Under the pieces are notes generated by a model. That model made no database searches. It was not told where the DNA came from and worked only from the letters and a program-made list of their open reading frames with translations. Source: Paeniglutamicibacter psychrophenolicus (GTDB lineage: Bacteria > Actinomycetota > Actinomycetes > Actinomycetales > Micrococcaceae). Taken from it: a stretch of DNA of 64,000 nucleotides. Where the stretch lies: positions 1-64,000 of the forward strand of contig NZ_JAUSSH010000017.1 of NCBI RefSeq assembly GCF_030812255.1, in the 5' to 3' direction. The position numbers and the translations under genes were made by a program. This document shows, in pieces, positions 6,996-17,713 of the stretch; the stretch's first letter is position 1, and each line of letters opens with the position of its first letter.

Positions 6996-7028
6996 TAAAT
7001 AACTTTTTGTCACAGTGAGGTGAGCACT

Positions 7029-8018
7029 ATGGCTGCACAGCAAGAAAGCGGCGGATCGCTATCCGCAGTACTTTCTCCTGAGGAGCAAGCAGGGCAGGAT
7101 CGGTTCAACCAGATCATTGCCGAGGATTCGCGCATCGAACCGCGCGACTGGATGCCGGAGGCGTACCGCAAGACGCTGACGCGGCAGATGTCGCAGCACG
7201 CGCACTCCGAGATCATCGGCATGCAGCCCGAGGCCAACTGGATCACCAGGGCCCCGTCGCTGAAGCGCAAGGCCATCCTGATGGCCAAGGTGCAGGACGA
7301 AGCGGGCCACGGCCTGTACCTGTACTCGGGCACCGAGACCCTCGGCACCCCGCGCGATGTCCTCAACGACCAGTTGATGACGGGCAAGGCCAAATACTCC
7401 TCGATCTTCAACTACCCGGCACGTTCCTGGGCCGACATGGGAGCAATCGGCTGGCTGGTTGACGGCGCCGCAATCGCCAACCAGGTCCCGCTGTGCCGCG
7501 CCTCCTACGGCCCGTACGGCCGCGCCATGGTGCGCATCTGCAAGGAAGAATCCTTCCACCAGCGCCAGGGTTTCGAGATCCTGCTGGAACTGGCCGGCGG
7601 CACCGAGGCACAGAAGAAGATGGCGCAGGACGCCATCAACCGCTTCTACGCCCCGTCGCTGATGATGTTCGGACCCCCGGATGCCGATTCGCCGAACTCC
7701 AAGCAGTCCACCGCCTGGAAGATCAAGCGCTTCTCCAACGACGAACTGCGCCAGCGCTTCGTCGGCATGATCGCCGAGCAGGTCAAGGTCCTGGGCCTGA
7801 CCCTTCCGGACCCGGAGCTGCGCTTCGACGAGGAATCCGGCACCTGGATCCACATGGACCTGGACTGGGAAGAATTCAAGGCAGTCATCGCCGGCAACGG
7901 CCCCTGCAACGCCCAGCGCCTGCAGCGCCGCAACGATGCACACAACGAAGGCGCCTGGGTGCGCGAAGCTGCCGCTGCATACGCGGCAAATATGGCTCGA
8001 AAGACCGAGGTTGCATAA
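7029..8018 (+). CDS. paaA: Phenylacetyl-CoA 1,2-epoxidase subunit A
   Basis: The catalytic subunit (329 residues) of the multicomponent diiron oxygenase that epoxidises the ring of phenylacetyl-CoA. Ferritin-like iron ligands are visible in EAGHGLYLY and [13 protein letters not shown], the two ExxH motifs. ATG at 7029 follows GAGGTGA by six bases and is preferred over the GTG at 7020. It is the first gene of paaABCDE, in the usual order, with paaB three bases downstream. Confidence 0.97.
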
Positions 8019-8021
8019 ATC

Positions 8022-8315
8022 ATGACCGAAACACACGGCACCTGGCCGCTCTGGGAAGTATTCGTCCGTTCCTCCCGCGGGCTCTCGCACGTGCACGCCG
8101 GTTCGCTGCACGCACCGGACGCGGAAATGGCATTGAAGAACGCCCGCGACCTGTACACCCGCCGCAACGAGGGCATCTCGCTGTGGGTCGTTGCGAGCAC
8201 CGACATCATTGCCTCGGACCCCGACGCGAAGGGCATGTACTTCGAGTCCCCGCAGGGCAAGGACTACCGCCATGCCACTTACTACACCAAGTCCGAGGGC
8301 GTGAAGCACCTGTGA
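8022..8315 (+). CDS. paaB: Phenylacetyl-CoA epoxidase subunit B
   Basis: A 97-residue small subunit with the family pattern WPLWEVFVRSSRGLSHVHAGS near the N-terminus and DARDLYTRRNEG-like helix in the middle (here NARDLYTRRNEGISLWVV). PaaB helps assemble the PaaABC(E) epoxidase complex and has no catalytic residues of its own. It starts three bases after paaA and its stop overlaps the GTG start of paaC. Confidence 0.96.
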   Translation: MTETHGTWPLWEVFVRSSRGLSHVHAGSLHAPDAEMALKNARDLYTRRNEGISLWVVASTDIIASDPDAKGMYFESPQGKDYRHATYYTKSEGVKHL

Positions 8316-9172
8316 GCGCACACGACATCGACCACTCGCTGGATTCCTTCGGTGACGCCAGCGCCTCGGCCACCCGCGTCACCCCGGGCAACGCACTGCG
8401 CCCCGAGGACATCGCGATCCAGCAGGAGAAGCCGACCGACCTGGTCGCGCAGTACGCACTGCGCCTGGGCGACGACGCCTTGATCCTGGCCCAGCGTCTC
8501 TCGCACTGGATCTCCCGTGGCCCGGAGCTGGAGGAAGACATCGCCCTGGGCAATATCGCCCTGGACCAGTTGGGCCATGCCCGCTCCTTCCTCACCTACG
8601 CCGGCAAGGCCTGGGATAAGACCGAGGACGATTTGGCCTACTGGCGCGAGGAAGAGGACTTCCGCTCGCTGCACATCGTCGAACAGCCCAACGGCGACTT
8701 CGGCGTCACCATCATGCGCCAGCTGATCATCTCCATCTACCAGCACCTGCTCTACACCGAGCTGCTTCAGTCCTCCGACCCGACGATCGCGGCGATTTCC
8801 GCCAAGGCCGTCAAGGAGGTCGACTACCACCGCGACCACGCCATCGCCTGGACCCTGCGCCTGGGGATGGGCACCGAGGAATCGGCCCGACGCATGCGCC
8901 ACGCCCTGGCGGTGCTCTGGCCCTACGTGGGGGAGATCTTCGAGGACGAGGACCTGCACACCGCCCTCGGCGACGTCGCCGTGGCGCCCTCGACCCTGCG
9001 CGCCGCCTGGGACGAGGAATTCGCCTCCGTCCTGGCCGACGCCGGGCTCGAGGTACCAACCGTTCCGTACGCAATGGCCCGGGGCCGGCGCGGCGAGCAT
9101 TCCGAGCACCTTGGCTTCATCCTGGCCGAGATGCAGGTGCTTGCCCGCAAGCACCCCGGCGCCACCTGGTAA
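8312..9172 (+). CDS. paaC: Phenylacetyl-CoA epoxidase subunit C
   Basis: The structural partner (286 residues) of PaaA in the epoxidase core, with a ferritin-like four-helix fold. Recognisable segments are LAQRLSHWISRGPELEEDIA, NIALDQLGHARSFL and EVDYHRDHAIAW. The start is the GTG inside the GTGA overlap with the paaB stop; the open frame extends much further upstream but has no coding character there. The N-terminal ~30 residues before the conserved region are an extension of low complexity. Confidence 0.95.
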   Translation: MSAHDIDHSLDSFGDASASATRVTPGNALRPEDIAIQQEKPTDLVAQYALRLGDDALILAQRLSHWISRGPELEEDIALGNIALDQLGHARSFLTYAGKAWDKTEDDLAYWREEEDFRSLHIVEQPNGDFGVTIMRQLIISIYQHLLYTELLQSSDPTIAAISAKAVKEVDYHRDHAIAWTLRLGMGTEESARRMRHALAVLWPYVGEIFEDEDLHTALGDVAVAPSTLRAAWDEEFASVLADAGLEVPTVPYAMARGRRGEHSEHLGFILAEMQVLARKHPGATW

Positions 9173-9188
9173 GCAAAGGACACAAGAC

Positions 9189-9674
9189 ATGATTGCCACC
9201 ATCGCCGAGCTCCGAGAGATCGCCTCGCGCGTCACCGATCCCGAGATCCCGGTACTCACCATCGCGGACCTGGGGATCCTGCGGGACGTGGACATGGAGG
9301 GTGACACAGTGGTTGTCACCATCACCCCCACCTACTCCGGGTGCCCGGCGATGGACGCAATCACCGAGGACCTCGGAATCGTCTTCAAGGAATCCGGATA
9401 CGACAATGTCCGGGTCAACCTGGTCCTTTCCCCGGCCTGGAGCACCGACTGGATGACCGAGTCGGGCAAGACCAAGCTGGAGGCCTACGGCATTGCCCCG
9501 CCCACGGGCACCGGACACCGCGGCCCGGTGACCCTGGGCATGGCCGTGAAATGCCCGCAGTGCCATTCGCTCAATACCAAAGAACTTTCCCGCTTTGGTT
9601 CCACCGCCTGCAAGTCCATGTACCAATGCAAGGACTGCCTGGAACCCTTCGACTACTTCAAGGTGCTCTCATGA
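9189..9674 (+). CDS. paaD: PaaD, Fe-S assembly-type protein for the epoxidase
   Basis: A 161-residue protein with an N-terminal MIP18/DUF59 domain (TDPEIPVLTIADLGIL... PTYSGCPAMDAI) and a C-terminal cysteine cluster, CPQC, C, CKDC, that probably binds metal. PaaD is required for a functional epoxidase and is thought to help load or repair the metal centres. AAAGGA precedes the start by eight bases. Its stop overlaps the paaE start in an ATGA. Confidence 0.95.
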   Translation: MIATIAELREIASRVTDPEIPVLTIADLGILRDVDMEGDTVVVTITPTYSGCPAMDAITEDLGIVFKESGYDNVRVNLVLSPAWSTDWMTESGKTKLEAYGIAPPTGTGHRGPVTLGMAVKCPQCHSLNTKELSRFGSTACKSMYQCKDCLEPFDYFKVLS

Positions 9675-10867
9675 CAGACACGACTGCCTCCCTGCCCACC
9701 GACGGGGGCGTTGATCCCGAGGTCCCGGGCCGCCGCCGGACCACGTTCCACACCCTCACCGTTGCCGAGGTCCGCAGGCTCACCGCCGACGCCATCGAGG
9801 TGACCTTCGCGGTCCCCGCCGAACTGGCCGGACAGTACGACTACCTGCCGGGCCAATACGTGGCCCTGCGCAAGGAGCTCGAGGACCTCGACGGCAACAT
9901 GGTCGAGCTGCGCCGCAGCTACTCGATCTGCGCCGAGCCCACGGACGGCGAGATCCACGTGGCCATCAAGCGCGACATCGGCGGGATCTTCTCCACCTGG
10001 GCCAACGAGTCGCTGGTCGCCGGGGACACCATGGATGTCATGAGCCCCACCGGCGGCTTCATCTCCAAGCACAAGATGACCGGGATGAACGACCCCGAGT
10101 CCATCGACGTGGAAAACGAGGACACGTTCGTGGCGGTGGCCGCCGGCTCGGGCATCACCCCGGTCATGGCGATCGCCCGCACGGTGCTGGCAGCCAACAA
10201 AAACGTCCACTTCGACCTGGTCTACGCGAACAAGGCAGCCATGGACGTGATGTTCCTGGAGGAACTGGCCGACCTCAAGGACCGCTACCCGGCCCGCTTT
10301 GCGCTGCACCACGTACTGAGCCGCGAACAGCGCATCTCCCCGCTGCTCTCGGGCCGCATCGACTCCGAGAAGCTGAACAAGCTGCTCGGCGCGGTCATCC
10401 GCACCGACCAGGTCGACGAATGGTTCCTCTGCGGGCCCTTCGAACTGGTCCAGCTGGTGCGCGACAATCTCGCCGCCCAGGGCGTCCCTGCCGAGAAGGT
10501 CCGCTACGAGCTGTTCACCACCGGCGAGCCGAACCGCCCCGAGGGCAACATCGGCCGCCCGGTGCTCATCGATGAATCCGATGAGACCTACTCGATCGGA
10601 TTCAAGCTCGATGGCCTGCAGGGCGAGGTCAAGAGCCCGGTGAATGCACGCGAAACCGTCCTCAATGCGGCGCTGCGGGTCCGCCCGGATGTCCCGTTTG
10701 CCTGCGCCGGCGGCGTGTGCGGCACCTGCCGCGCCAAGGTCGTCGAAGGCGCGGTGGAAATGGATGAGAACTACGCGCTGGAACCGGACGAGATCGAGCG
10801 TGGTTACGTGCTGACCTGCCAGTCGCGTCCCACCACCGAACGCGTCCTGGTCGACTACGACGCCTAG
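9671..10867 (+). CDS. paaE: Phenylacetyl-CoA epoxidase reductase subunit E
   Basis: A 398-residue electron-transfer protein passing electrons from NADPH to the PaaA diiron centre. Domains in order: FAD-binding (RRSYSICAEP, about residues 80-90), NAD(P)-binding (AAGSGITPVMAIA, about 157-170), and a C-terminal plant-type 2Fe-2S ferredoxin domain with CAGGVCGTC and a final LTCQSRP cysteine. The ATG overlaps the paaD stop. It ends the tightly packed paaABCDE block; a hairpin follows 15 bases later. Confidence 0.96.
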   Translation: MTDTTASLPTDGGVDPEVPGRRRTTFHTLTVAEVRRLTADAIEVTFAVPAELAGQYDYLPGQYVALRKELEDLDGNMVELRRSYSICAEPTDGEIHVAIKRDIGGIFSTWANESLVAGDTMDVMSPTGGFISKHKMTGMNDPESIDVENEDTFVAVAAGSGITPVMAIARTVLAANKNVHFDLVYANKAAMDVMFLEELADLKDRYPARFALHHVLSREQRISPLLSGRIDSEKLNKLLGAVIRTDQVDEWFLCGPFELVQLVRDNLAAQGVPAEKVRYELFTTGEPNRPEGNIGRPVLIDESDETYSIGFKLDGLQGEVKSPVNARETVLNAALRVRPDVPFACAGGVCGTCRAKVVEGAVEMDENYALEPDEIERGYVLTCQSRPTTERVLVDYDA

Positions 10868-10881
10868 TCACAAGCAACACC

Positions 10882-10920
10882 GGCAAGGATCCATCCGCAC
10901 CCAGCGGGTGGATCCTTGCC
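10882..10920 (+). terminator. Hairpin after paaE
   Basis: A 12-bp perfect outer stem (GGCAAGGATCCA with TGGATCCTTGCC) is extended by partly matching CCG/CGG pairs around a short loop. No T run follows. It may terminate or attenuate transcription between paaE and the hydratase gene, giving the latter a lower level. Confidence 0.6.
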
Positions 10921-10955
10921 GTAGGACCCGAAAATCCCCAGTGAACGGACCAACG

Positions 10956-11735
10956 ATGATTGAACTGAATATCTCCGACGGCGTGGCGGAGATCGTGCTC
11001 AACGCCCCGCAAAAGATGAACTCGCTGAACGAGGCGGCGTTGGCGGAATTGGAAGCCGCCTATGACAAGGCCGCCGAGGGTGTGGAAACCGGCGAGGTGC
11101 GCGCGCTGCTGCTGCGCGGGGAGGGCCGCGGCTTCTGCGCCGGCCGCGACATCTCCGGGGTGGTCCCCGCCGACGACGACGTCATGGGCTACCTGGGCGG
11201 AAAGGTCCAGCCGCTGCTGGCCAAGATGTCCTCCTTCCCGGCCCCCACCTTTGCTGCCGTGCACGGCGCGTGCCTCGGGGTCGGGCTGGGCCTGGCCATC
11301 GCCACCGATGTGGTTTACGTGGCGGATAATGCGAAAATCGGTTCCCCCTTCGCCAACCTGGGTGCGACCCTGGATTCGGGCGGGCACTGGCTGTTCACCG
11401 AACGCCTGGGCACGCACCGCACGCTGGATTTGATCTACACTGCCGAGTTGATCAGCGGTGCCGATGCGGTGGCCTCGGGGCTCTTCTCCCGCGCCATGCC
11501 GGCAGACACGCTGCTGGAGACGACGCGGGGGATCGTCGCGAAGGTCGCCACCGGCGCCACCGGGGCGTTCCGCGCCTCCAAGGAACTGGTCGCCGAGATC
11601 CGCGACGCCCGACTGGGCCTGTGGGACTCGATGGCCAACGAAAACCAGGCCCAGGCCGACCTGTGCGCCACCGAGGACTACGCCGAGGGTTTCCTGGCCT
11701 TCCAGGAAAAGCGCAAGCCCGCCTTCAAGGGCTGA
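10956..11735 (+). CDS. Enoyl-CoA hydratase/isomerase family protein (PaaG-like)
   Basis: A 259-residue crotonase-fold protein. The CoA-binding and oxyanion-hole region reads RGFCAGRDISG and HGACLGVGLGLAIATD, followed by SPFANLGATLDSGGHWLF. The acidic residue normally found in hydratase active sites is replaced in PaaG-type isomerases by an Asp in the second conserved helix (compatible with LDSGG here). Its place right after paaE suggests isomerisation of the ring epoxide-CoA to the oxepin-CoA or hydration in the same route. A GTG upstream at 10941 would add five residues; ATG 10956 gives the standard N-terminus. Confidence 0.85.
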   Translation: MIELNISDGVAEIVLNAPQKMNSLNEAALAELEAAYDKAAEGVETGEVRALLLRGEGRGFCAGRDISGVVPADDDVMGYLGGKVQPLLAKMSSFPAPTFAAVHGACLGVGLGLAIATDVVYVADNAKIGSPFANLGATLDSGGHWLFTERLGTHRTLDLIYTAELISGADAVASGLFSRAMPADTLLETTRGIVAKVATGATGAFRASKELVAEIRDARLGLWDSMANENQAQADLCATEDYAEGFLAFQEKRKPAFKG

Positions 11736-11754
11736 GATTCCCGAATGCATGACA

Positions 11755-11793
11755 GCGGCGCCCCTGCCACGAGCGGGGGCGCCGCCGTTTTTG
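11755..11793 (+). terminator. Rho-independent terminator of the paa region
   Basis: A 10-bp GC-only stem (GCGGCGCCCC with GGGGCGCCGC) is followed by CGTTTTTG. It lies 20 bases after the hydratase stop. Confidence 0.85.
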
Positions 11794-12218
11794 CCACGGC
11801 GCGCCGTTCTCGGGCGGGGCGTGAGGCCTGGGCGCAAGCCCGCATCCGTGGGGCGTCTGGTCCGCGTGTGATCGTTTATCCGGCATCGGCCGGCCGTGCG
11901 GGGGAGCGAAACACCGCCGTGGCGCTCCGCGGCGAGGCGGTTCTCCAGGCAAGTGCATGGCGTTCCCGCAGCGCGGCGCGAACCAACCGCAGGCGTGGGA
12001 AACTCCCGGGGGAGGAATCGCAGCTGATCGCCGTCGGTGGTGCCTTGCGGCAGCGGCGTGGCCAAGGCACCGTGACCACCCGACCCACCGTCCCGGGCCC
12101 GGAATAACGCGCGCGCTGGTCCCGGGTGCGCGGGATCCGCGTATCAACCAAAGGATTGAGATGGTTTTCAACCGGTTGTCCGATGTGTGGTGGCAGGCCC
12201 TCTTGATTGACTGAAGCC
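11794..12218. other. Gene-free interval before the MMPL gene
   Basis: About 425 bases without a convincing coding frame on either strand. The final 60 bases are less GC-rich and should hold the MMPL promoter; TTGAGATGGTTTTCAA (12156-12171) has TTGA/TCAA ends but poor internal symmetry. I see no clear -35/-10 pair. Confidence 0.5.
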
Positions 12219-14360
12219 ATGTCCAATTTTCGGCTTCGTTCCTCCCTGCCCCAACGACTGACCTCCCGTCGAGGCGCCTGGGTTTCGCTTGTCCTGGTGC
12301 TCCTGTGCGTTGTTGCCCTCTTTGGGCTACTCCGTTCCGCCGAAGCACCGGCCTCAAATGCGATTTCTCCGGATACTTCCGAGTCGGCCGAGGTCAACGC
12401 CCTGGCTGAGCAGTTCCCCGGCAGCGACGAAGGATCGGTGCTGATCGTGGCCACGCACCAGGACGGGACGCGGCTTTCCGAGGCAGACATGGCCGATCTG
12501 GCCGCGCTGGCACCGGCCATCGATGACACCACCGGGCACCAGGCCTTCCGGCCGTTCGTCAGCGAAGACGGGAAGGCCGCCGTCATCCAGACCGCAATCA
12601 CCTTGGGTGAAGACAACACGGCCACTGCCCAAACAGTGAAGGACGTGCGCAACACCCTGGCGCAGAACCCCATCGCCGGAATCTCCCTGCAGGTCACCGG
12701 GGGATCCGCCTTCGGCGCCGATATCGCAGCATCCTTCGAGGGCGCCGACTTCACATTGCTGTTGGTCACCATCGGGATCGTTGCGGTGTTGCTGATCCTC
12801 ACCTACCGTTCCCCGGTCCTATGGCTGATCCCGTTGGTGGTGGTGGCCATCGCGGACCAGATTGCCGGGATGGCCACGGCGGCACTCGGCAGCGCCTTCG
12901 ATCTGCAATTCGATGCGGGGATCATCAGCGTCCTGGTCTTCGGTGCCGGAACGAACTATGCCCTGCTCTTGATCTCGCGCTACCGCGAAGAACTCATGGA
13001 TACCCGGGACCATCGCCTGGCCATGGCAAACGCCTGGCGCGGCACGGCTCCGGCCATTGTGGCCTCGAACGTGACCGTTGTACTCTCCCTGGCCACCCTG
13101 GTTCTGGCCGTCATCCCCGGAACCCGGGGATTGGGCATTTCCTCGGCCGTGGGGCTCATCATCGCCCTGGTTGCCGTGCTCTTTGCGTTGCCGCCCTTGC
13201 TGGTGGTGTGCGGGCGCAGGATCTTCTGGCCGTTTATTCCCCGCCCGGAACAGCCGCAGGGCCGTCAGCGCATGTGGGGAGTGATCGCCGGCAAGGTGGT
13301 GCGCCGCCCGGTGGTGGCACTGCTGGCCGGTGGTGCCTTGCTGGCCGTCATGGCCAGCGGCCTGTTTGGCACGTCCATTGGCTTGACACAGACCGAGAAG
13401 TTCCGCGTGGCCTCCGAATCGGCAGCCGGGTTGGAGACACTTGGCGAACACTTCCCGCCCGGTGAATCCCAGCCGATGTTCCTGATTGCCAAGAGCTCGA
13501 AGATCGACCAGGTACAGTCGGCAGCCCGGGACGTCGCAGGAGTATTGCGCGTGACGCCGCTGGGTGCATCCGAGAACGGGGAGCTTGAAAAACTGATGGT
13601 CACCGGGGAACCGGGCCCCGGAACCCCCGAGAGCCTGGCCCTGGTGGAGGAACTGCGCGAGGCGGTGCATGCCGTCGCGGGTGCCGACGCGATTGTTGGC
13701 GGCGCAGTGGCCGAGGACGTCGATGCCCGTGCCGGGAACATGCGCGACCTGCTGCTGATCGCACCGTTGGTCTTGGCGGTGAGCTTCCTGGTGCTGTTGG
13801 CACTGTTGCGTTCGATGGTGGCCCCGGCCTTGCTGCTGGTGGTCAATGTGTTCAGCGCGCTGGCCGCCATCGGTGCGGGGTCGTGGCTCAGCCAAAGGTT
13901 TTTCGGCCAGGACTCGCTGGATCTGCAGGTGCCGTTGCTCGCGTTCCTGTTCCTGGTCGCCTTGGGCATCGACTACACGATATTCCTGGTCCACCGGGCC
14001 AGAAGCGAGGCCGAGGTCCATGGCACCAGGCAGGGCATGGTCCGTGCGGTTGCCAGCACCGGAGGTGTGATCACCAGCGCCGGCATTGTCCTGGCCGCGG
14101 TGTTTGCCGCCTTGGGCATGCTGCCGTTGGTGACCCTGGGCCAGCTGGGCCTGATTGTGGGACTGGGCGTGTTGGTCGATACCTTGGTCGTACGCACGGT
14201 GATCGTTCCGGCCATCTTCAGCGTGGTTGGAGACCGCATTTGGTGGCCCTCCCCGCCGCCCCACGCCCGGCACACGGATGGGGGCGTGGCGGCAACGGAC
14301 TCCGAGGAGGGAGAATCAGGTCATGGCGCTTATTCCAGTGGAGTCTCCCTTACCCGCTAG
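12219..14360 (+). CDS. MMPL-family RND transporter
   Basis: A 713-residue inner-membrane transporter with two repeats, each with a first helix, a large external domain and five helices. The MMPL signature pairs are visible as VFGAGTNYALLLISRYREEL in the first half (about residues 245-265) and VALGIDYTIFLVHRARSEA in the second (about 580-600). MMPL proteins export lipids, siderophores or hydrophobic toxicants driven by the proton gradient. ATG at 12219 is chosen over TTG 12207; neither has a strong ribosome site. The 3' end overlaps the next gene by 38 bases. The substrate is not evident; no lipid-synthesis genes are adjacent. Confidence 0.9.
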   Translation: MSNFRLRSSLPQRLTSRRGAWVSLVLVLLCVVALFGLLRSAEAPASNAISPDTSESAEVNALAEQFPGSDEGSVLIVATHQDGTRLSEADMADLAALAPAIDDTTGHQAFRPFVSEDGKAAVIQTAITLGEDNTATAQTVKDVRNTLAQNPIAGISLQVTGGSAFGADIAASFEGADFTLLLVTIGIVAVLLILTYRSPVLWLIPLVVVAIADQIAGMATAALGSAFDLQFDAGIISVLVFGAGTNYALLLISRYREELMDTRDHRLAMANAWRGTAPAIVASNVTVVLSLATLVLAVIPGTRGLGISSAVGLIIALVAVLFALPPLLVVCGRRIFWPFIPRPEQPQGRQRMWGVIAGKVVRRPVVALLAGGALLAVMASGLFGTSIGLTQTEKFRVASESAAGLETLGEHFPPGESQPMFLIAKSSKIDQVQSAARDVAGVLRVTPLGASENGELEKLMVTGEPGPGTPESLALVEELREAVHAVAGADAIVGGAVAEDVDARAGNMRDLLLIAPLVLAVSFLVLLALLRSMVAPALLLVVNVFSALAAIGAGSWLSQRFFGQDSLDLQVPLLAFLFLVALGIDYTIFLVHRARSEAEVHGTRQGMVRAVASTGGVITSAGIVLAAVFAALGMLPLVTLGQLGLIVGLGVLVDTLVVRTVIVPAIFSVVGDRIWWPSPPPHARHTDGGVAATDSEEGESGHGAYSSGVSLTR

Positions 14361-15141
14361 ACCCGGGTCCCCCTCCCAAACCGGCAAGGCGCCGGGAGAA
14401 GGAAACCGTGCCTCGAACTTGACGATCCGTACGATGCGGGTGGGGTTGCACCTACTCACGGCCGCGCTGGTGGTGATCTCCGTGGCCCGGGCGCTGATGA
14501 GCGGGACCCCGCTGGTTTTGGCGCTGGGCAGCGGCGTGGCAATTTTTGTTTGGTACCTGGCCGGGATGCTGGTGGCCGGGCCGCAACGAGTCGCCTCGAG
14601 TGCCGGCTGGTGGCTGCTGGGCCTTGCCCTGCTCTGGATCGGGGCGGTGATCGTCTCACCGGAGTACCTTTGGCTGGCCTTTGCCCTGTGGCTGCTGGCC
14701 GGCTATGTCCTGCGTTGGCGCTGGGCCGTTCTCTTCTCTGTGGTGGTTTACGCCATGGTTGCGGTTGCCCCGATTCTGGAATTCGGGTCCACCACCTTTG
14801 CCGGTGTGATCGGACCACTGCTTGGCGGGGTCTTTGCCCTGAGCATCGCCCGGGGATACCTCGAGGACCTGGAGCAGGGCCGCTTCTCCATGAACGTGCG
14901 CATGTTGGCCCATCCCTCCGACCGAGGCTACCTCACGGGGTTGTTCCAACAACTCGTCGTGGCGGTGTTGGCCGGGGCCGCAGTGCTTGGGGCGATCATC
15001 CTGATCGTTGCCAATGAGGGGCCCCTGGTCGCGGGGGACATCCACCTTTACGCGGTCTTTGGCTTCGCCTTGCTCTTTGGAGGTTTTGTGTTGGGCATGC
15101 GCAGCCTGATGCTGGTGTTCAAGCGCGATCAGGACGGGTAA
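14323..15141 (+). CDS. Chimeric membrane protein: sensor-kinase N-half plus AarF/UbiB tail
   Basis: A 272-residue polytopic membrane protein. Residues about 20-178 look like the membrane sensor half of an actinobacterial NarL-type histidine kinase: MRVGLHLLTAALVVISVARA, WYLAGMLVAG, SPEYLWLAFALWLLAGYVLRW and VIGPLLGGVFALSIARGY. There the family continues into the dimerisation/His domain, but here the frame passes into LEQGRFSMNVRMLAHPSDRG, YLTGLFQQLVVAVLAGA and a second helix, which resembles the C-terminal two-helix tail of AarF/UbiB (ABC1) kinases. Both catalytic cores are absent. The start at 14323 has GAGGGAG upstream and lies inside the MMPL gene, so the upstream junction is intact. An internal deletion fusing two genes fits best, with the joint near 14858-14885. 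Family assignments are from memory of the folds. Confidence 0.65.
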   Translation: MALIPVESPLPARPGSPSQTGKAPGEGNRASNLTIRTMRVGLHLLTAALVVISVARALMSGTPLVLALGSGVAIFVWYLAGMLVAGPQRVASSAGWWLLGLALLWIGAVIVSPEYLWLAFALWLLAGYVLRWRWAVLFSVVVYAMVAVAPILEFGSTTFAGVIGPLLGGVFALSIARGYLEDLEQGRFSMNVRMLAHPSDRGYLTGLFQQLVVAVLAGAAVLGAIILIVANEGPLVAGDIHLYAVFGFALLFGGFVLGMRSLMLVFKRDQDG

Positions 15142-15690
15142 TGATGCCGGCGGCGAGGGCCCATCGAGCACCTGGCATTGTTCAAAGCCACTTTGCCCAC
15201 CAGCCGCGGAGCCAGGACTCCAGCCGAATGGCGGTGTAGAACGCTCCGCGCAGTTCGCTGAGCCTGGACCCGTATCCGTGGACCCGGATCCAGCGGCACC
15301 CGAGTTGGCCAGGAGCGCATTTCACGGTCGGGCGGCTTGGGCCGAAGCGGATGTCGCGGGTTTTCCGTGTGCGTTGAATTCGCCGCCGGACGGATCCTTG
15401 AGGGGGGTGCGAATTGGAGACGATGCGGGAGGCCGTGGCCGGCCACGAGTGGTTCTGGCGGGATTCCACCGGAGCGACCTCGGCGGGTTCCGGCGGGTCG
15501 GGAGCGGTTGGCCGGACAGGACGGCAGGGGAGCTGTAACGCATGGCCCGTGATCCGGGTATGCGGGTTTGGGAAAAACCACGTACTTCACGGGGAAATGT
15601 CGATTTGCGGTAGGCGCAACACCGAGCCGGTGCGCCATGGGCAGGACGTCGTCTTCGTCCACTCTGCTTTCCCGGGCGATTGCCATGTCA
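15142..15690. other. Gene-free, possibly decayed interval
   Basis: About 550 bases without a convincing full gene. On the minus strand, 15183-15258 reads SELRGAFYTAIRLESWLRGW and then ends, which looks like the C-terminus of a real protein whose upstream part degenerates. I do not recognise the family. The interval follows the chimeric gene, so it may belong to the same deletion scar. Confidence 0.4.
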
Positions 15691-15693
15691 AAA

Positions 15694-15750
15694 AATCTTT
15701 ACATTGATCTATCATGGACCTAGGCTCTAAAGTAAAGAATCTTTGACATT
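15694..15750 (+). promoter_or_regulatory. AT-rich promoter with duplicated AATCTTT-ACATT element
   Basis: AATCTTTACATT (15694-15705) and AATCTTTGACATT (15738-15750) are near-identical direct repeats 44 bases apart. The second overlaps the 11-bp palindrome AAAGAATCTTT (15734-15744). Both lie just upstream of the membrane protein/XRE pair, and the region is conspicuously AT-rich against its surroundings. These are candidate autoregulatory sites for the XRE protein. Confidence 0.5.
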
Positions 15751-15765
15751 TAGGGGTTGGTGGAC

Positions 15766-16197
15766 GTGTCCAGCGAAGAACGTGTTGCCTGGGTGGGCGT
15801 CGCTTCCGGCAGTGCTGGAATGCTGGTATTTGTCGCGCTGGCGCTGATTCATGCGCTGGGAGACGGCCGCCTGGCGGGGCAAAACTACACTATTCCGATG
15901 ATCCTCTGTGTCTTCGTCATGGTGGCCCCGGTGTGGATAGTGCGCGGACTTCTGGCCAGGGGCCGCAAAAAGACGGACCTTGGTCCAGATGAGCGGGATC
16001 GCGACATTGCACGCCGCGCCGACCAGGCCAAGTTCCAGGTCCTCTTGTTCGCCTGCGTGGTCGTCTTGTCCATGGCCTTCACCGGCACCGAACATTTCTG
16101 GATCGCTTCGACGGTCTTTGCCGGTTTGGGATTCTCCCTCCTCGTGGGTGCCGGGGTGCAGATTGCCGGCTACCGCCGTGGCGTACCAACGTGGTGA
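15766..16197 (+). CDS. Small four-helix membrane protein paired with an XRE regulator
   Basis: A 143-residue protein with four predicted helices: [54 protein letters not shown] and [19 protein letters not shown]. Between helices 2 and 3 is a charged cytoplasmic stretch ([20 protein letters not shown]) reminiscent of DUF2178-type proteins. GTG 15766 is used, with AGGGG nine bases upstream; GTG 15760 and TTG 15757 are alternatives. The stop overlaps the start of a one-domain XRE regulator, a recurrent pairing in Firmicutes and Actinobacteria. The function of such pairs is unknown to me. Confidence 0.7.
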
Positions 16198-16430
16198 ACC
16201 GCGGGCGGCTCGGCAACTCCATCCGGGAACTCAGGGCAGGCAAAAACAACATGACCCAGGCCGAACTCGGCGCTCTGGTCGGGGTGACGCGCCAAACCAT
16301 CATCGCCATCGAACAGGGGAAATACTCGCCCTCCCTGGAATCGGCATTCCGGATCGCCCACGCGCTGAACCTCCCCATCACCGAGGTCTTCAGGTACGAG
16401 TTCGAGACGACGGTGGGCGAGGGAGACTAA
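16194..16430 (+). CDS. Small XRE-family regulator
   Basis: A 78-residue protein consisting of one helix-turn-helix XRE domain: [56 protein letters not shown]. The GTG start lies in a GTGA overlap with the preceding membrane-protein gene, so the two are translationally coupled. The gene ends in a 3-4 base convergent overlap with the MFS gene. It probably controls its own operon through the repeats at 15694-15750. Confidence 0.88.
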
Positions 16431-17713
16431 GCTTCCTCACGAGTCTTGCCACGCAGCAGGGCCAGCAGGGGCAGGGCCGCAAAGGCCGTCAGGCCCACCC
16501 AGATCCACATGGCGTTTTGCAGGCCCAGCGCGTCCCCGACTAGGCCGCCGACGATGCCCAGGATCGGCACCGGTCCCATGGTGAACACCAGCCGGAATCC
16601 CTGTTGGCGCCCCATCATCCCATCCGGGGTGGAACCGGCCAGCAGCCCGTAGGCAGTGGCGTTGTAGGAAACCATCAGCGCGTTGTAGAGCACAGAATGG
16701 CCGATGACCACCCATACGGCCCCGGTGCCGGCGAGCGCGGCCAGGGGGACCAGCGCCACGGCCAGCGGCAGGAGGAAGATGGACAGGGCCAGGACCCGGT
16801 ATTCTCCCCATTTGCCCACGAGGGACGGGACCAACAGCGAGCCGAGCAGCCCTCCGACGGCGATGGTGGAAATGACCAAGCCGATGGCCGGGGGTGTGAA
16901 ACCCAGAACCTTGACGAAGTACAAGGTCTCCAGCGCCGATCCGAACGCCAATCCCATGTTGGTGATTGCCGACGACGTTACCAGAGCGCGGATGACGGGG
17001 TTCGTGAGTGTGAAGCGAAGCCCCTCGCCGAAGGAATCCCGGAAGCCGATCCGCGGTGTCGATTCCGCGGATGGCACCGATCGTCCCGGCTTCCTGCGAA
17101 ATCCCCAAAGCAAGGTGGCTGCGGCGAGCAGATTGGCGGTTCCGGCGACGAGCAGGGTAAAGGGCGCTGACATGACGGCGACCAGCACGCCGGCCAACCC
17201 GGGGGAAGCGATCCCGACCGAAGTCTCGACGGTTTCCTTGCGTGCATAGGCCGTGGATACCAGATCCCGTCCCACCGTCGAAGGCAGCGCCGATCCGGCA
17301 CCCATGTTCCACAACATTCCTGCCACTCCCACGAGGAACGAAACACAGACCAGCTGCAGGTAGCCCAGGGCACCCATCGACCAGGCCAGCGGCACCGAGA
17401 AAATGGCCAGACCCGCCGCCAGCTGCGCCCACATCATGGTCCCGATCCGGTTGACGCGGTCCAGCATGATTCCCGCGGGGATCGCCAGGAATAAAAACGC
17501 CACCGATTCGGAGGCATTGAGGATTCCGATCTGGGTCGCGTTGGCGCCCAGGGCATAGATGGCGACCAAATCGTTGGCCACATTCAGGATGCCCGTCGAC
17601 AGGGCGCCAAACGCAACGGAAAACAGCAGCGCCTGGAATCCGGGACGGTTGCGCAGAAGCCGATTCGGCACTGCCGCGTCGAGGTCGGAACCCGCCGCAG
17701 TGTCCTTGTCCAT
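16427..17713 (-). CDS. MFS transporter
   Basis: A 428-residue major facilitator protein with about twelve helices. Cytoplasmic loop 2-3 reads [15 protein letters not shown], the MFS motif A position. The start at 17713 is preceded by GGGGAA; the longer upstream frame overlaps the Lrp gene and is unlikely. It lies 62 bp downstream of, and on the same strand as, the Lrp-type regulator, so the pair may be co-transcribed. The substrate is unknown; the fold is closest to EntS/MFS_3-type exporters. Confidence 0.85.

Follow-up and report, generated by a model that had tools for sequence, protein, structure and literature searches.

The window analysed here is a stretch of 64,000 nucleotides from Paeniglutamicibacter psychrophenolicus (C17:1-64000, part of a 105,944-bp contig), and the locus of interest is a fusion gene at 14323-15141 on the forward strand, defined by ORF calls and by homology to both of its parents. 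The frame runs from an ATG at 14323 to a stop at 15139-15141 and encodes 272 amino acids plus the stop, with 0 internal stops. By homology, residues 1-180 (14323-14861, forward strand) are the sensor (membrane) half of a histidine kinase, with six predicted helices, and the rest (14863-15138, same strand) is the C-terminal tail of an AarF/ABC1 protein, from residue 590 to the end in the ORF numbering of G001, one of two congeneric genomes (the other is G003) in which the parents are separate genes. A first-pass annotation, made from the letters alone, had described a NarL-type kinase sensor of about 178 residues joined to an AarF/UbiB tail of about 90, with frame and start intact, and the description holds up well: the head has 180 residues and matches the kinase frames of G003 and G001, the tail has 92 and matches their ABC1 proteins, and the frame is open throughout. 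Against Pfam and NCBIfam, the fusion ORF scored 0 families at E <= 1, evidently because neither catalytic core survives and no existing model covers the two halves that remain; its parentage is thus argued from direct matches to the parents' genes and not via profile models. The annotation had counted profiles matching neither parent as grounds for abandoning the chimera, and literally that is the outcome for the fusion, but the direct matches leave the parentage standing.

The fusion start falls within the end of an intact MMPL-family transporter gene (12207-14360, forward strand; PF03176, E 7.5e-100; 82% identical to its G001 counterpart), in a start context like that of the relatives; the true MMPL start is perhaps the ATG at 12219. 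The two genes lie in an islet with outer limits at 11785-15683, between a gene at 10938-11732 that we take, by eye, to be enoyl-CoA-hydratase-like and the gene for a 146-aa protein. Homology to the other 14 congeneric loci breaks off at 11731-11784. In 12 of them it picks up again at 15684-16466; L103 and L116 have no match on the right-hand side. In G013, the left and right homology points are ~90 bp apart. G003 carries an intact block on its contig C1 and its own copy of this site on its contig C4, with ~500 bp between the matches. Relatives lack the block at this site and the G003 block lies elsewhere, so the block with the MMPL gene came to this site, by insertion or relocation, in the lineage of the P. 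psychrophenolicus genome. Upstream of the islet, window positions 7020-11735 hold a cluster that by eye looks like phenylacetate degradation (paa) genes.

Parent genes and the deletion junction

All 15 genus genomes, P. psychrophenolicus included, give some match to the fusion at E <= 0.001, and close matches to both halves were found only in G003 and G001 besides the genome itself. In these two relatives, residues 1-189 match a 474-aa open frame (67%, E 8e-74 in G003; 66%, E 3e-72 in G001), and residues 180-271 match a 694-aa open frame (87%, E 4e-46; 88%, E 4e-47) situated about 3.8 kb beyond the first. The gene order in both is MFS transporter (PF07690 in G003), MMPL, kinase, LuxR-type response regulator, DUF2871 (PF11070 in G001) and AarF. 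The parent kinases have HisKA_3 (9.9e-15) and HATPase_c domains, the G001 regulator has Response_reg and GerE, and the parent AarF proteins have ABC1 (PF03109; 6.7e-56 and 2.7e-57); HisKA_3, HATPase_c and ABC1 are absent from the fusion, as the claim that both catalytic cores are missing would have it. Aligned with 12 kinase heads, the fusion head shares 32 invariant columns. The annotation had presumed a response regulator gene between the parents and had looked to relatives with separate genes to settle the matter; the regulator is found there in G003 and G001, together with a DUF2871 gene that is likewise missing from the window.

The window is collinear with G003 over 12142-14865 (79% DNA identity) and then over 14862-15146 (81%), and likewise with G001 (79% on the left, 80% on the right). 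With the left side collinear to the parents up to 14865 and the right side from 14862, there is a single breakpoint. Letter-by-letter comparison places the deletion junction at 14859-14866 (forward strand), within the 14850-14890 interval where it had been expected; the best break is 14862 against G001, 14862 and 14866 tie against G003, and the shared bases are about GAG. Computed from the alignment coordinates, 3811 bp are missing from the window relative to G003 and 3812 bp relative to G001, which together with the ancestral order in two relatives bears out the proposal of a deletion as origin. Microhomology at the junction amounts to only ~3-4 bp, and the junction has the look of joining without long homology. 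The fusion stays open because the codon frames of kinase and AarF happen to agree.

The fused form was sought at three taxonomic depths, in genome sets that overlap and hold one genome per species. Both halves were spanned in the P. psychrophenolicus genome only, whether among the 15 genus genomes (E <= 0.001), among the candidates scored from 295 family genomes (54 matching at E <= 1e-20) or among those scored from 396 order genomes (31 matching at E <= 1e-35). A scan of named genome contigs, from which records very near this genome were perhaps left out, gave 22 loci with the tail alone in all of them, and a protein search of a plasmid collection with a threshold of 1e-5 gave nothing. A conserved compact protein family, the finding in relatives that the annotation had thought would undo its proposal, is accordingly rejected, the fused form having been seen in one genome among the genus, family and order sets. 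In the portion surveyed of the literature on UbiB/ABC1 tails, histidine-kinase deletion fusions, DUF2871, MMPL two-component systems and the palindrome described below, the fusion is unmentioned, a silence that does not prove it unpublished.

The fate of aarF in relatives was surveyed in 17 loci plus the window. Most of these loci came from searches with the tail, and several were picked for their short frames, so that the numbers are no census. The gene is whole and without a stop in eight loci (L031, L032, L033, L041, L053, L054, L100 and L101), seven of them distinct, since L041 and L101 are apparently the same contig, and whole with one stop in L034. Elsewhere it is broken: L094 keeps residues 447-680 only, with two stops; L095 and L035, apparently the same contig, have it broken across three frames; L097 has three pieces; L052 has residues 10-215 with a stop and then 585-622; and L096 has 439-679, beside a whole copy elsewhere in its genome. 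In L098 and L099 only a 41-42% tail is kept. This aarF subfamily is clearly dispensable in some relatives. In L096, at 9996-11971, a 236-aa aarF remnant stands directly upstream of the MMPL, kinase and regulator genes, and the ORFs adjoining it resemble, by eye, an IS3-type transposase pair.

The transporter gene and its candidate operator

Upstream of the MMPL gene, at 12144-12159 on the forward strand, lies an operator-like imperfect palindrome, TCAACCAAAGGATTGA, of the class TCAACC-N4-GGTTGA. With at most 1 of the 12 positions mismatched, the class is found 62-119 bp upstream of the MMPL start in 9 of the 11 loci that have an MMPL gene, among them the window. This count rests partly on the data that suggested the pattern, which was derived from four aligned loci and then widened as more loci came into view; among the nine, L053, L054 and the window are closely related and not independent. 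At every one of these nine loci, the palindrome score was matched by 0-1 of 500 mononucleotide shuffles. L143 and L144 are without the palindrome, their best sites having 4 mismatches (reached by 226/500 shuffles) and 3 (45/500). Across 185,179 bases from 12 sources there are 12 sites of the class, 9 of them before MMPL: besides 12144-12159 in the window, these are at L053 3213, L054 3086, L096 9939, L138 6003, L139 2539, L140 8003, L141 1996 and L142 3374. The linked LuxR-type regulator probably has the palindrome as its operator. Eight further family loci (L138-L145), chosen from head matches among the family genomes, show the linkage itself: MMPL, kinase and regulator genes adjoin in 7 of the 8 (L138-L144), and L145, at a contig end, has kinase and regulator only. 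In several genera (L139, L140, L144, L053 and L054), the MMPL/two-component genes have a gene for a DUF2871 membrane protein next to them, which may belong to the module.

The window keeps the palindrome at 12144-12159 without a linked regulator. The nearest paralogous system in the genome has its kinase match at C2:19958 and its regulator at C2:21256, the latter 48% identical to the lost regulator; in its HTH, 33 of 65 residues are like those of the lost regulator, and the next best has 32 (8 of 39 matches compared). A site of the palindrome class, TCAACCATTCGGTGGA, at C2:19894-19909 (L002 1437-1452), lies 28 bp (from its start) to 12 bp (from its end) before the first possible ORF start of the paralogous kinase. 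A take-over of the MMPL promoter by this system is possible on such grounds. The idea is weakened by palindrome-class sites elsewhere in the genome: with at most 1 mismatch there are 28 places, vs 6 in a backward-read control, and a single site thus means little. Two exact copies of the palindrome are present, at C1:317077-317092 and C4:254603-254618, and by eye no MMPL or two-component gene was recognised among the ORFs at the former.

Origin and fate of the fusion

Whether selection has acted on the fusion was addressed with a codon model on four sequences. For the head on the window branch, omega was 0.27 (174 codons) vs a background of 0.11 (2dlnL 6.3), and omega = 1 was rejected (2dlnL 11.4). 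For MMPL on the same branch, omega was 0.12 (711 codons) vs 0.06 (2dlnL 7.3); since omega rises alike in the two, the head is at most slightly more relaxed. For the tail (89-91 codons, five outgroups), omega ran from 0.04 to the upper bound depending on the outgroup: it was 0.04-0.06 with G195, G221 and G124 (2dlnL 1.55-1.83), 0.13 with G230 and at the bound (7.4) with G246, and omega = 1 was rejected in none. With 0.05 substitutions per site, neutral simulations without indels left the frame open in 40-50% of runs; with 0.3, in 1-6%. The absence of stops hence tells little over short times; the data are compatible with a recent deletion as well as with selection on the fusion, and a long neutral past of the fusion is unlikely.

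An AlphaFold2 run whose alignment held 12 kinase heads only predicts that the head forms six helices, of which the last (159-184) crosses the junction, and that the tail forms two long ones (202-230 and 237-271). Mean pLDDT is 66.1, with ten-residue blocks at 63-93 over residues 31-180 and at 40-54 from 191 on, the tail half of the model being weak because of that alignment. The joined ends of both parents should face the cytoplasm, which makes a 6+2-helix topology of the fusion plausible in this model. By Pfam, no catalytic domain is left.

The explanation we hold to be likely is that the fusion is a deletion relic, an inert scar beside an orphaned transporter, left by a deletion of ~3.8 kb in the lineage of this genome. 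The ancestor would have carried the islet as MMPL, histidine kinase, response regulator, DUF2871 and AarF, the order shown in two relatives, and one deletion of ~3.8 kb, joined at the ~3-4 bp of microhomology, would have made the fusion; the missing stretch is shown, and that it went in a single event is what we infer. The joining would have been illegitimate, possibly by Ku-dependent end joining, and the genome has two Ku homologues (C20:3995-4531 and C20:13521-14054), about 9 kb apart. The deletion would have taken away the kinase core together with the response regulator and DUF2871 genes, as well as the first ~589 AarF residues, with one open frame left by a 1-in-3 chance. Because its start overlaps the MMPL gene end, the fusion is probably co-translated with MMPL. 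Its product would be a membrane protein of 8 helices, of which the sensor supplies six and the AarF tail two, and would lack any catalytic domain; such a product is most likely inert, and the fusion most likely recent. What counts most would be the effect on regulation: since the probable operator of the lost system still stands before the MMPL gene, the transporter would be either unregulated or taken over by a surviving paralogous system. The broken aarF of several relatives shows that the loss is tolerated, which fits the deletion relic. Against inertness, an open frame and a constrained head (omega 0.27) would also follow from selection on the fusion.

How firmly the deletion itself stands depends in part on the assembly, a 35-contig draft of 4.57 Mb; in such a draft a contig could be chimeric or collapsed while the real genome has an intact block, and collapse had been the annotation's alternative to deletion. 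We find this very hard to credit and reject collapse, since the junction, which lies ~14.9 kb inside its contig and shares only the ~3-4 bp, has no repeat long enough to mislead an assembler. When 321 bases spanning the junction were compared with the whole genome, the 39 further matches were all short, the longest being 40 bp (80%, E 0.008; 40 of 52 candidates scored). Moreover, completeness is 100 and contamination 0.39, and neither the missing response regulator nor the missing AarF has a close copy on any contig. The searches behind that statement also led us to reject the idea that the missing genes had moved to another place in the genome, with distant paralogues only in evidence: three other matches for the lost AarF (27-33%) and 39 for the lost regulator (the best-scoring at 48%). 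The fusion itself gives one full match in the genome plus one of 30% over residues 6-180, on C2. A repeat-driven event was rejected too, as none of the repeats listed for 11700-15800 covers 14862; an inverted-repeat arm of 22 nt lies near the junction at 14833-14854, 77% complementary to 15671-15692. More room must be left for a different order of events, which is all that separates it from the explanation above: the deletion may have come before or at the transfer of the islet, so that the block was acquired already fused. The block site does differ from that of G003, and there are relatives without the block at this site, but no donor with the fused block was found, and we regard this order as rather doubtful, less so than any other rival considered here.

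The rival that touches the protein and not its history has selection maintaining the fusion as a new membrane protein with a function of its own, for instance as a sensor acting on the adjoining MMPL transporter without phosphotransfer. The open frame, the kept start context and the overlap with MMPL speak for it, as do the coherent predicted topology, in which the last sensor helix (159-184) runs through the junction, a head omega below 1 and a tail 87-89% identical to the parents' tails. Yet it is found in one genome only, and a recent deletion explains the same data, with 40-50% of simulations still open at 0.05 neutral substitutions per site; the head evolves faster on the window branch (0.27 vs 0.11), though MMPL rises similarly (0.12 vs 0.06), and the tail half of the model is of low confidence (pLDDT blocks of 40-54). 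We consider such a protein unlikely. More improbable still is the bolder combination in which the fusion is a working new membrane protein, an AarF-hairpin-capped sensor bundle that binds the adjacent MMPL transporter and gates it directly, and the operator has been captured by the C2:19.9-21.9 kb system.

The locus is a clean, base-resolved case in which one deletion both creates a chimeric open frame and cuts a transporter off from its two-component system, and close relatives still show the ancestral state. As a protein family, the fusion is ordinary, being confined to one genome and having no catalytic domain. What lends itself to testing is the operator, with its possible capture, and the conserved palindrome before MMPL genes would give a direct handle on paralogous take-over of an orphaned promoter.

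Among known systems, the nearest are the parents themselves. The fusion resembles the MMPL-linked NarL/DesK-type kinases (HisKA_3 plus HATPase_c) of G003 and G001 in its sensor half (residues 1-180, 66-70% identical), its start context and its overlap with the MMPL gene, but it has no phosphoacceptor or ATPase domain and no adjoining response regulator. With the AarF/UbiB/ABC1 proteins (PF03109) of the same genomes it shares the two-helix C-terminal tail (last 92 residues, 87-89% identical), but nothing is left of the ABC1 kinase-like domain or of the N-terminal helices. More generally, chromosomal deletions in bacteria leave gene fusions or pseudogene remnants, with a short-homology junction, loss of the intervening genes and a chance in-frame join. 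The present parent pair differs from that class in being fused in no other genome searched, and it is like the class in all three of these marks.
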